Assembly: GCF_001278945.1 (NCBI RefSeq)
Contig: NZ_LGRV01000003.1
Location: forward strand, 62,001-126,000
DNA length: 64,000 nucleotides
Direction: 5' to 3'
From: Lysinibacillus contaminans
GTDB lineage: Bacteria; Bacillota; Bacilli; Bacillales_A; Planococcaceae
The notes under the pieces were generated by a model that was not told the DNA's origin, ran no database searches, and worked only from the letters and a program-made list of their open reading frames with translations. The translations under genes were made by a program, and so were the position numbers. The stretch's first letter is position 1. Each line of letters begins with the position of its first letter. Positions 14,046 through 51,567 of this stretch are shown here, piece after piece.

Positions 14046-14070
14046 TAGCTTTCATTGAATGCTTTGAGAA

Positions 14071-14111
14071 AAAAAGGGTGTCTCAAAAGTAATTTGAGAC
14101 ACCCTTTTTCT
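14071..14111 (+). terminator. Strong terminator after ytoP
   Basis: A 17-bp perfect stem (AAAAAGGGTGTCTCAAA with its complement), loop AGTAA and a T-run. Confidence 0.9.
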
Positions 14112-14169
14112 GCGAGAAAAGTGAAGCTAACAGGAAAGAATGTATAATTCAAGTTTATCATTTCTGGAG

Positions 14170-14420
14170 GAGGGCACTGAAAAACTCTAAAGTTGAAATT
14201 TTTTATAGTAATTATTTGCGGAAACATTACATTTTCGTTAAGGAGTGAGCGCGGCGGTGTGAGACTCCTACGGGAAAGTGAGACAGACGAGACCCCGTAC
14301 GAAGCAAAGCACAGGAGGAGGCTCGTCGCTCGCCCGCAGAAAACGAACGCCAGAGCGCTAAATCCTAATGACTGATTTTTATAAGAGTTTTATTGAGAGA
14401 ACCACTTTTTCAGTGCCCTC
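14170..14420. mobile_element. MITE-like element with IS1182-type ends
   Basis: A 251-bp element bounded by perfect 15-bp inverted repeats, GAGGGCACTGAAAAA and TTTTTCAGTGCCCTC. The outer 17 bases at each end are identical to the ends of the intact IS at 49719-51405, so its transposase could move this element in trans. It encodes no transposase. Bases 14242-14350 are a GC-rich module (starting ggagtgagcgcggcggtgtg) of a repeat type found in many Bacillaceae genomes; the rest is AT-rich. No clear target duplication was found at the edges. A short open frame inside (14193-14375) has no support as a gene. Confidence 0.82.
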
Positions 14421-14460
14421 TTTTTGGATCAATCTCTATACTTAGAAAGTAGGAATTTAC

Positions 14461-14982
14461 ATGAACATAGCAATTGGTACAACAAATAAGGCGAAAATTG
14501 GCGCTGTGGAAGTTATATCTAACAGAGTTTTCGAAAATACTGAATTTACATATTATAAGGCGGCATCAGATGTTTCTGAGCAGCCGATGACTACAGAAGA
14601 AACAAGACAAGGTGCAATAAATCGTGCGAGAAATACAATGGCATCGACTGGATCTGCTCTATCTTTTGGCCTAGAAGGCGGTGTCACGGAAATTGAAGGT
14701 GTTATGTATGTTTGTAACTGGGGAGCACTTGTATTAGCAGATGGTACGGTATTTACAGCAGCTGGTGCACAAATTGTATTACCAATAGAAATTGCCCAGG
14801 AAATAAGAGCTGGCAAAGAACTAGGGCCAGTAATGGAGGCGTACACACAACGACGTGACATTAGACAACATATAGGAGCCGTGGGTATTTTCACACAAGG
14901 TTTAGTGGATCGTCAGGCAATGTTTGAGCATATTGTAGCGCTACTTGTAGGTCAATATCTGTTTGTATTATCACATAATTAG
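14461..14982 (+). CDS. Inosine/xanthosine triphosphatase-like NTPase (DUF84, YjjX-like)
   Basis: A 173-residue protein of the YjjX/DUF84 family, which hydrolyses non-canonical nucleotides such as ITP and XTP and so cleans the nucleotide pool. Features: N-terminal IAIGTTNKAKIGAV (phosphate/nucleotide contact), an EQPMTTEETRQGAINRA helix and the FGLEGGV motif with its catalytic glutamate, the usual family pattern. Length is normal. The start has AAAGTAGG about ten bases upstream (weak). It directly follows the MITE-like element by 40 bases, so its promoter may lie in or at the edge of the element. B. subtilis has no such gene at this place. Confidence 0.82.
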   Translation: MNIAIGTTNKAKIGAVEVISNRVFENTEFTYYKAASDVSEQPMTTEETRQGAINRARNTMASTGSALSFGLEGGVTEIEGVMYVCNWGALVLADGTVFTAAGAQIVLPIEIAQEIRAGKELGPVMEAYTQRRDIRQHIGAVGIFTQGLVDRQAMFEHIVALLVGQYLFVLSHN

Positions 14983-23500: not shown

Positions 23501-23525
23501 AGGTTACTCACTATAAATTGGGGCT

Positions 23526-23610
23526 GATTTCCGTTCCAGTTAGGCGCTTTTTGGGGTCTCATCTAGAACGATAATTCTCTAGGAGTCGCCCAGCTGGAAC
23601 GAAGAGAAAT
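23526..23610. repeat. Degenerate GC-rich dispersed repeat
   Basis: Ends GATTTCCGTTCCAG and CTGGAACGAAGAGAAAT are inverted copies, and the middle contains TTGGGGTCTCATCTAG and CTAGGAGTCGCC. This is the same repeat style as the module at 14242-14350 (which carries GAGACTCCTACGGG and GAGACCCC), in the opposite orientation and shortened. Confidence 0.55.
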
Positions 23611-23701
23611 AAATAACAGTCTTTCATAAAATATTATCCACTACTGTTAATGATAAATAATTTATTATGATAAAAGGAATTAGGATTGAGCACTTTGAAC
23701 A

Positions 23702-44644: not shown

Positions 44645-44884
44645 GTTTTCTAGTGATGAAAAGTTTGCAGTAGTTTCTATATTCCCTGTTTAGAGAGCTA
44701 GCGGTTGGTGAAAGCTAGTCATAATGTAGAAATGAATTACGTACTTGGAGCTTAGACGTGCGCGCCTGCGATAAAGGCGGTCAATGAAGAGGAAGATGGA
44801 TGACATCTTCAAGCCGGGTGGTACCGCGTTAAGTGAAATTTAACGTCCCTGCATGCAACTTGTTGCGTGTGGGGACTTTTTTAT
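44645..44884 (+). ncRNA. T-box leader of tyrS
   Basis: The conserved T-box sequence GGGTGGTACCGCG is at 44816-44828, preceded by the stem I/II/III region. UAC codons at 44738-44740 and 44742-44744 fit a tyrosine specifier. The terminator GTCCC...GGGAC (44845-44876) plus T-run completes the switch: uncharged tRNA-Tyr stabilises the antiterminator and lets tyrS be transcribed. Limits of stem I are approximate. Confidence 0.9.
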
Positions 44885-49697: not shown

Positions 49698-49718
49698 AAA
49701 AATCCACTTGGTGTTTTG
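49698..49718 (+). terminator. Left part of a terminator split by the insertion sequence
   Basis: AAAAATCCACTT plus the loop GGTGTTTTG lie to the left of the insertion, and a second copy of the loop plus AGGTGGATTTTT to the right (51406-51426). Joined, they form a stem of 12 bp with one G-T pair and a T-run. Confidence 0.8.
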
Positions 49719-49767
49719 GAGGGCACTGAAAAACTTACGTTTTTAAATTTGTAGGTTCATTTAAGAT

Positions 49768-49817
49768 AAAAATAGGCGACTTCTTGTTCATCTTGGAACA
49801 GGAAGTCGCCTATTTCT
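49768..49817 (-). terminator. Transposase terminator inside the IS
   Basis: Stem AAATAGGCGACTTC with GAAGTCGCCTATTT, inner TTGTTC/GAACA. Confidence 0.85.
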
Positions 49818-49827
49818 TTCGGTTATT

Positions 49828-51288
49828 TTACTCTTTTTCTTTCAATAACGTGAGTATCCGTTTCAAATTGACGGCGAATATAGTTGTGGCTCCTTGCATT
49901 TCCATCCCAAATAGACCCGCAGATGATGCTACATCATACCCGTGTCCGTTCTTTAACTCACTGTTTTTGGCTTCAATTTTATAACGTGAACGCGCCAGTT
50001 CTTTAAAATCATCTGTGTTCTGAAAGACTTCCTGTTCTGCGTGTTCCATCGATTTTATGGTCACCGAATAGGTCTTATTTTTAGCACCTTCTTTATAACA
50101 ACCTTCGCGCAAAGGACATACTTTACATTTTTCTATGTCAAAATAATAGGTTTGACGTTGGTTCTTTCCGACGTTCTTTTTATTCGTACGTGCTGTGCGA
50201 ATTGCCATATGTCCTGCTTTACACACATACATACCAGCATCTTTATTAAACTCAAATTCTTCTTCTTTCGTACGTCCACCTTGTGTAATCTGCGGATTTA
50301 GTTTTGATACAAGTTGAAATTCCTCTGTTTTAGCTAATTGGAGATTGTCTTTCTCTGAATAAGCTGCATCACCGATCACTGTGTCAATTTCTATGCCTGT
50401 TGTTTTACTTTTTTCTATTAATTCTTTTAAGTATTTCCCATCACTTTTCTCACCCGTTGTCACGACAGCGGCAGTAATGATGCGTTCATCGCTCATAGCA
50501 ATATGCGTTTTAAATCCAAAGAAAGAAGAGTCCATTGATTTATGACCAATACGTGCGTCTGGGTCTGCGGAATAGCTAAGTTGTACTTCAAAATCTTCGA
50601 CCACTTCTTTTAAAACATTTAATTTTTCTTTGACAGCAGGGACACACGCTATTTTTGGTTGTGCTTCCACGATTTCTACGACTTGACGGCAATAATCGAG
50701 TTCATCATTTACTTCGTTAGAAGTGGTTTTGGGCGGGAATTTTTCTTTCATTGTTTCATCAAATTGATAGACAGCTTTACGGACGTTTTTTGATTTCTCC
50801 TGTAAAAATTCCTTTGGTGATTTTTGATTGTAACGTGCTTTTGTATGTGTGGCATCAACAATAATCGTTTTACTCGAAATGATGTTTTTCTCTAACGCAA
50901 TCTCAACCGTTTTTCCAATCAACAAATCTAATAAACCCACATCTTGAAGACGGAGTCGGCGAAATTTCGTTAATGAACTTGAATGAATGACATCTTCTTC
51001 AGGCGCCATATCTAAAAAGTATTTGAAGGACATATCGTATTTCGAGCGTTCAACCAGATCTTCATCGGATACATCATAAATCGCTTTTAATAATAAATAT
51101 TTGAACATACGAATAGGAGGCACAGCATTACGACCATTATCGAGACAATATTTAGTTTTCAACTCATCTAAAATAAATGAGAAATCGACAAGTTCATTGA
51201 TTTGGCGAAGCATATTATTTTTGGGTACGACGATATCATAGATCGCCATAAAAGGGCTAAGTTTCAGCGTTTCTTGGTTTGAAATCAT
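49828..51288 (-). CDS. IS1182 family transposase
   Basis: A 486-residue DDE transposase. The N-terminal domain (NQETLKLSPFMAIYDIVVPKNN, split by residues) and a middle region with TIIVDATHTKARY carry the first catalytic Asp; DAAYSEKDN the second; a Cys-rich insertion (CPLREGC) and a late RYKIEAKNSELKNGHGYD supply the last. ATG 51288 has GGTGG upstream; a GTG four codons earlier is the alternative. It looks intact and so the IS may be active and could mobilise the MITE-like element at 14170. Confidence 0.93.
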   Translation of the reverse strand: MISNQETLKLSPFMAIYDIVVPKNNMLRQINELVDFSFILDELKTKYCLDNGRNAVPPIRMFKYLLLKAIYDVSDEDLVERSKYDMSFKYFLDMAPEEDVIHSSSLTKFRRLRLQDVGLLDLLIGKTVEIALEKNIISSKTIIVDATHTKARYNQKSPKEFLQEKSKNVRKAVYQFDETMKEKFPPKTTSNEVNDELDYCRQVVEIVEAQPKIACVPAVKEKLNVLKEVVEDFEVQLSYSADPDARIGHKSMDSSFFGFKTHIAMSDERIITAAVVTTGEKSDGKYLKELIEKSKTTGIEIDTVIGDAAYSEKDNLQLAKTEEFQLVSKLNPQITQGGRTKEEEFEFNKDAGMYVCKAGHMAIRTARTNKKNVGKNQRQTYYFDIEKCKVCPLREGCYKEGAKNKTYSVTIKSMEHAEQEVFQNTDDFKELARSRYKIEAKNSELKNGHGYDVASSAGLFGMEMQGATTIFAVNLKRILTLLKEKE

Positions 51289-51567
51289 TTTAAATACCAC
51301 CTACATACATTGATAACCTTAGTATAAAACAAAAAGCAGTGGAAAGTTCGATGCAAACGAGCTTTCCACTGCTTAAATTAAATTTTGGACTTTTTCAGTG
51401 CCCTCGGTGTTTTGAGGTGGATTTTTATATATTGATCATTCGGATTATTTAAAATATTCGTTTAACATATTCATCTATATAGATTGAATTAAAGATTCAA
51501 GCGAGTTTGCAGCATTGTGGACATTTTCGTCTAGTAAATTTTTTTTGCACTGTAAAACCTAATCTGT

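Follow-up and report, generated by a model that had tools for sequence, protein, structure and literature searches.

A short IS1182-type element in Lysinibacillus contaminans carries a GC-rich structured repeat that is also a target for transposon insertion

REP elements and REPINs, with their RAYT transposases, are dispersed hairpin repeats present at high copy number. Insertion sequences (IS) that target REP elements have been reported from the IS3, IS110, IS4, IS256 and IS5 families, with ISPpu9, ISPpu10, ISPsy8 and ISRm22 as named examples (PMC1525189); the words IS1182 and Bacillus are absent from the main text of that paper. For the IS1182 family, IS1272/TnSha1 of Staphylococcus is described as inserting into hairpins and terminators, and IS1272 is reported to leave no target site duplication (TSD) and to delete in part, or replace, the hairpin (PMC4923244; PMC5678879). 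MITEs with an IS1182-family partner are described from Methanosarcina acetivorans, where multicopy elements of 160 and 169 bp are related to ISMac2 (PMC3852290). The element analysed here, MITE-A, is likewise short and multicopy with an IS1182-family partner. Unlike the ISMac2-related MITEs, it resides in a bacterial host, its interior is a structured repeat common to other MITE types, and its TSDs measure 8-9 bp, against apparently 4 and 0 as the columns in PMC3852290 read.

MITE-A lies in a stretch of 64,000 nucleotides of the L. contaminans genome (hereafter the window), whose relevant features are collected in Table 1. Exact matches to GAGGGCACTGAAAAA occur four times in the window, at both ends of MITE-A and both ends of the IS at 49719-51405; up to 3 mismatches were permitted, a level at which four matches do not stand out against shuffled sequence (mean 2.12), and all four had 0 mismatches. 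The left end of MITE-A, GAGGGCACTGAAAAACT, equals the 3' end of the IS and the right end, GAGGGCACTGAAAAAGT, its 5' end. As the two additional end-specific bases also agree (CT on the left, GT on the right), the match covers 17 bases per end, with the ends in the same polarity as in the IS, and the end identity claimed in an earlier note on this DNA proved exact on both sides. That note had also described an interior devoid of transposase and bearing a GC-rich dispersed repeat, and both points were borne out: there is no ORF of 80 aa or more within the element, and its interior holds one copy of the GC-rich module, giving the layout 3' end, module, 5' end.

Table 1 Features of MITE-A and of the resident IS1182 element in the window.
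Feature	Position	Strand	Details
Left copy, presumed target duplication TTTCTGGAG	14161-14169	.	7/9 match to 14421-14429
Left terminal inverted repeat (TIR), IS1182 3'-end type	14170-14184	+	15/15 with right TIR; bases 16-17 CT = 3' end of IS
MITE-A, 251-bp non-autonomous IS1182-type element	14170-14420	.	13 two-ended genome copies, edges at TIRs
GC-rich structured module (dispersed hairpin repeat)	14238-14375	+	covariance model R1, 119.8 bits (this copy is one of the 24 seeds of the model); base-pair covariation
Right TIR, IS1182 5'-end type	14406-14420	-	15/15 with left TIR; bases 16-17 GT = 5' end of IS
Right copy, presumed target duplication TTTTTGGAT	14421-14429	.	7/9 match to left copy
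Autonomous IS1182-family element, 1687 bp	49719-51405	-	four identical genome copies; TSD GGTGTTTTG at 49710-49718 and 51406-51414
IS1182 transposase gene, 490 aa	49828-51300	-	NF033551 366.5 bits (cut-off 270); Pfam DUF772 and DDE domains

A BLAST search of the 251-bp element against its own genome (E ≤ 1) returned 50 matches, part of them IS ends, two of which were full-length at 92% and 91% identity. By pattern matching and inspection we recognised 13 two-ended copies, picked by hand from the BLAST and pattern matches and leaving out one-ended partial copies such as C1:501252, C1:320111, C1:1966444, C2:291771 and C4:28213. The earlier note had pictured a multicopy element with constant edges and variable surroundings, and this is what the genome contains: several copies in different flanks, with edges that stop at the inverted repeats. 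Neither a lone copy nor edges lying elsewhere than at the inverted repeats was encountered. Perfect TSDs of 8-9 bp flank three of the 13 copies (CTATTTTG, TTATTTGAA and AGCGTTAG) and near-perfect ones a further five (four matching at 7/8, the window copy at 7/9), while five have no convincing duplication, with lengths of 7 to 10 tried and some copy edges set by hand.

The exact two-ended pattern of MITE-A was found in one of 32 genus genomes, the window's own, and full-length matches in two of 121 genomes when the six best candidates of each were scored; a third genome, G010, has a decayed relative. Full-length relatives of about 70% identity occur in genome G045, from another genus, where all three that were read have perfect TSDs and where seven IS1182 copies are also present. 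No match was found among 72,556 plasmid records (E ≤ 1e-5), and the 22-base end of MITE-A had no exact match in named genomes, a set to which the window's own record and near-identical ones possibly do not belong.

The insertion site itself was compared for the window copy of MITE-A. Between ytoP and the DUF84 gene the window has 415 bp, versus 58-79 bp in 29 of the 29 genus relatives read (out of 31 other genus genomes having the gene); the empty sites in relatives that the earlier note had proposed to look for therefore exist. Once MITE-A and one 9-bp duplication are subtracted, 155 bp remain, that is, 76-97 bp of spacer beyond MITE-A. This excess (window 14046-14160) is not accounted for by the element or its duplication. 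The gene names ytoP, ytpP and ytpQ are those used in the earlier note, and we take the gene matching PRK13668 to be its ytpQ. That gene is not the downstream neighbour, as had been claimed: the adjoining gene is DUF84 (14461-14982), followed by a small gene that appears lipoprotein-like by eye and only then by the PRK13668-match gene. Replacement of ytpP at this spot is similarly unsupported, since the gap is too short for ytpP in all 29 relatives and no gene fits there. The order of ytoP and DUF84 is unchanged in the same 29 genomes, which lends no support to the suggested rearrangement point. We conclude that 14170-14420 is a real non-autonomous IS1182-type MITE, new within a known class of elements and unusual in its interior.

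The core of the module folds as a long hairpin, with 96.0% of cells paired across 24 diverse copies. Two-sided changes were seen at 11 of its 22 base pairs, a number reached in none of 500 shuffles, the test being favourable to a structure that was itself predicted from this alignment. Pairing of the outer stem is better within module copies than between them (mean -23.2 versus -16.5), and the own arm was the best partner of all in only 4 of 12 representatives. With a covariance model seeded in part with MITE copies, we found at least 75 module matches in the window's genome (E ≤ 0.01; 150 of 332 candidates scored) and at least 135 in the related genome G007 (E ≤ 1e-4; 150 of 982 candidates scored). 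One or more copies are present in 92 of 151 related genomes and 25 of 63 genera in a survey that scored 21 candidates per genome under stricter filters. There was no Rfam match over the module at the gathering score in the window, nor at E ≤ 1 in five loci. Being dispersed, palindromic and present in many copies per genome, the module shares the traits of REP elements and REPINs, and we do not class it as a REP; unlike REP elements and REPINs with their RAYT transposases, its carriers here are MITEs with TIRs and TSDs. Keyword searches retrieved no published description of the repeat, most of the subscription literature being outside their scope and absence therefore unproven, and a literature search with sequence strings gave nothing on bacterial repeats among the matches listed. 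Elsewhere in the window, a weak match to the module at 23515-23613 (minus strand; 16.4 bits, E 0.009) is possibly a decayed copy, and a T-box leader lies at 44647-44853 (plus strand, 107.5 bits).

MITE-A is one of several carriers of this module. We classified the ends around the 56 strongest of the at least 75 modules in the window's genome, allowing up to 4 mismatches per end. Ten modules lay between IS1182-type ends, 15 between ISL3-type ends (GGTTCATCACCAAAA or GGCTCTACACCAAAA) and five between ends of a third type (CAGGTGTGTTGATTA); eight had one end and 18 none. In a control with the motifs reversed, 0 modules were called two-ended and 2 one-ended. When inverted ends with 8-9 bp duplications were sought without bias, 10 of the 56 modules scored above all 150 decoys, comprising four with IS1182-type, two with ISL3-type and four with third-type ends. 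The second type is assigned to ISL3 because ISL3-family loci from the genus share these ends (16 of 27, at ≤ 2 mismatches), mostly with 8-bp duplications (perfect at 12 of the 16, 8 bp being the sole length tried). None of the 20 ISL3 loci searched, of the 27, contained a module. The third-type motif is abundant in the genus relatives G007 and G025, with 132 and 135 matches respectively (≤ 1 mismatch), and sampled third-type elements in both genomes carry the GC module. No partner was found for the third type; locus L320, considered as an autonomous one, was rejected, as by eye it holds a CoA-transferase-like gene only and no transposase. The earlier note had proposed that the MITE spreads the repeat, and this stands in so far as MITE-A does carry the module. 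As the general mode of spread it fails, with the module in 92 of 151 genomes versus full-length MITE matches in 2 of 121 and with 10 of 56 modules in IS1182-type ends; the module is a widespread repeat in its own right, and MITE-A is thus one carrier and not the general vehicle.

The same module occurs in the leaders of IS1182 elements. It was found upstream of the transposase gene, in one orientation throughout, in 33 of 95 loci searched (of 110 IS1182 loci, several being the same copy in two collections). On a transposase tree of 68 rows, in which identical proteins appear once and L263, L270, L302, L311 and L248 (frame broken) were left out, the leader module is present in 22 rows and requires 9 changes, at least four of them forced by well supported branches. 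Rows with the module cluster together, as shuffled labels needed 18.9 changes on average and none of 500 shuffles was as low as 9. In most of the leaders of IS1182 relatives inspected by eye, a terminator-like hairpin follows the 5' end and precedes the transposase start, a pattern considered together with the 5' leader of the IS in the window (51301-51405, minus strand). The arrangement suggests that the leader hairpin may shield the transposase gene from outside transcription. Depending on the lineage the module lies outside or inside this hairpin, and L227 has no hairpin (by eye). L226 and L297, which have the same flanks and are probably one copy, carry some 270 bp of additional sequence, rich in hairpins, close to the IS1182 3' end.

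We then turn to where IS1182 elements insert. The resident IS of the window's genome is present in four copies identical over 1687 bp, with TSDs GGTGTTTTG, GATAAATTG, GAGCAGTTC and CTCAGTAA; this identity indicates that they were probably active recently. The analysis of insertion sites and the tree drew on L248, L251 and a set of 94 IS1182 loci (64 of 80 named and 30 unnamed). Filtering on ends and flanks kept 82 of these 94, which represent 75 distinct insertions. Perfect TSDs of 8 bp (36 insertions) or 9 bp (27) flank 63 of the 75, the remainder being one each of 6, 7 and 10 bp and nine without duplication. Their sites are rich in hairpins: a stem score of at least 10 was found at 42 of 75 versus 4.3% of 744 control stretches, and the 60-base sites of the 66 insertions with TSDs fold at a mean of -18.1 kcal/mol versus -8.4 in controls. 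The relatives studied here thus resemble IS1272/TnSha1 in their IS1182-family transposase and hairpin targets, and differ from IS1272 in keeping 8-9 bp TSDs. At MITE-A insertions a hairpin preference was not detected (11 sites, mean difference from control P = 0.26), a sample with which a modest preference would fit too. A stem score of at least 10 was reached at one of the 11 sites versus 4.8% of controls in the first scoring, and in a wider scoring at three versus 8.2% (at least 9: four versus 13.6%); two of the 11 have clear hairpins. Compared directly, IS1182 relatives and MITE-A insertions differ in hairpin scoring (P = 0.019).

A subgroup of IS1182 in genome G007 has the GC module as its target. 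Each of its 12 identical copies interrupts a module at one point (model positions 34-47), and their distal flanks are dissimilar (mean 31%, maximum 57% in ungapped comparison). Ten have TSDs of 10 bp (for example GATCAGCGTC), one of 9 bp and one an imperfect duplication. Insertion of every copy into a dispersed palindromic repeat is reminiscent of the REP-targeting IS elements (PMC1525189). MITE-A uses the same point: three of 14 MITE-A insertions, at C1:1668335 (the outer unit of a nested pair), C1:2203073 and C1:245185, are at module positions 36-46, for which a rough, after-the-fact chance estimate is 3e-9. One further MITE-A copy sits within the module carried by another MITE. The duplications of the three module-site copies are 8 bp long (7/8 matching) versus the 10 bp of ten of the 12 G007 copies. 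MITE-A shares 21 terminal bases with the G007 IS at the 5' end and 18 at the 3' end, compared with 17 at each end for the resident IS. No G007-type transposase was found in the window's genome, the assembly of which is 86% complete; its four IS1182 copies show 68% identity to that type. Among other IS1182 sites, five of 85 lie in the module near its apex, at positions 62-78 (L231, L235, L238, L242 and L243), four of these loci belonging to one well supported clade; four C. gottheilii loci are of the same kind, each no more than 9 bases away from a half module that adjoins masked bases.

Taken together, it is very probable that MITE-A is moved in trans by an IS1182-family transposase and is one carrier of the module, with a G007-like subgroup as the most likely mobiliser of some copies. 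Such a transposase would recognise the ends of about 17 bp in trans, and insertion would create the 8-9 bp duplication. The presence of single or decayed ends elsewhere in the genome might suggest that MITE-A is no transposable unit but the remains of an IS or an inverted repeat arisen by chance, an explanation rendered extremely improbable by the defined edges, TSDs, copy number and empty sites. A further question is which transposase acts. The earlier note favoured the resident IS1182 itself, and the 17 bp per end in common with MITE-A, together with the probable recent activity of its four copies, speak for this version. We nevertheless find it doubtful, because the arms of MITE-A diverge from the resident IS past base 17, because IS1182 relatives favour hairpins and MITE-A insertions do not detectably do so, and because three MITE-A copies occupy the G007 module site, in which none of the four resident copies (0/4 inside a module) is found. 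The lack of a detectable hairpin preference makes it less likely that the resident IS is the only mobiliser, and it also speaks against a simple IS1182 picture. A G007-like subgroup, site-specific for the GC module, may instead mobilise at least part of the copies, as the greater number of shared terminal bases and the common target site within the module suggest.

The role of the module itself can also be read in other ways. It could be the real mobile unit, having invaded an IS1182-ended element as it did others, the IS1182 ends then being incidental. The three kinds of ends around it in the window's genome, its presence in IS1182 leaders and the 18 modules lacking recognised ends are consistent with this, but the duplications seen sit at the outer ends of the MITEs and no enzyme is tied to the module, so we consider it unlikely. 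We judge it equally unlikely that the module is kept in IS1182 leaders and MITEs for a function, for example as an insulator against outside transcription into the transposase gene. Such a role would fit the single orientation of all 33 leader copies, the repeated changes on the tree with those forced by well supported branches, and the position on either side of the terminator-like hairpin by lineage (none in L227). Against it, the leader module is lacking from 46 of the 68 transposase rows, its presence is clustered on the tree, and a fixed orientation could come from a directional mechanism or from few ancestral gains.

As to its origin, MITE-A may descend from an IS1182 that bore the module and lost its transposase gene, a route suggested by its layout and by the orientation of its module, which are the same as in IS1182 leaders. 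No direct deletion parent was identified, because the similarity of the subterminal arms to any IS stops by about 40 bp. For the resident IS, an origin by direct internal deletion was rejected, as identity ends at base 17.

One structured repeat that is both the cargo of several MITE types and the specific target of an IS1182 subgroup represents a variant of repeat-targeting transposition. Tentatively, and with somewhat less than even confidence, we propose a wider reading in which a structured GC repeat, widespread in this Bacillales family and without an Rfam match, would serve unrelated transposons as target (at a single point, or at the apex) and as cargo (in MITEs and IS1182 leaders), a REP-like economy run on DDE transposons. 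Because a single sequence is target and cargo at once, transposons may acquire and spread the repeat by inserting into it. An IS1182 subgroup that enters a dispersed hairpin repeat at one specific site adds to the five other IS families for which REP targeting has been reported (PMC1525189), and here one structured repeat rides in mini-transposons with unrelated ends. The system makes it testable how dispersed repeats of Gram-positive bacteria originate and spread, and it provides a DDE transposase whose target is repeat-specific.
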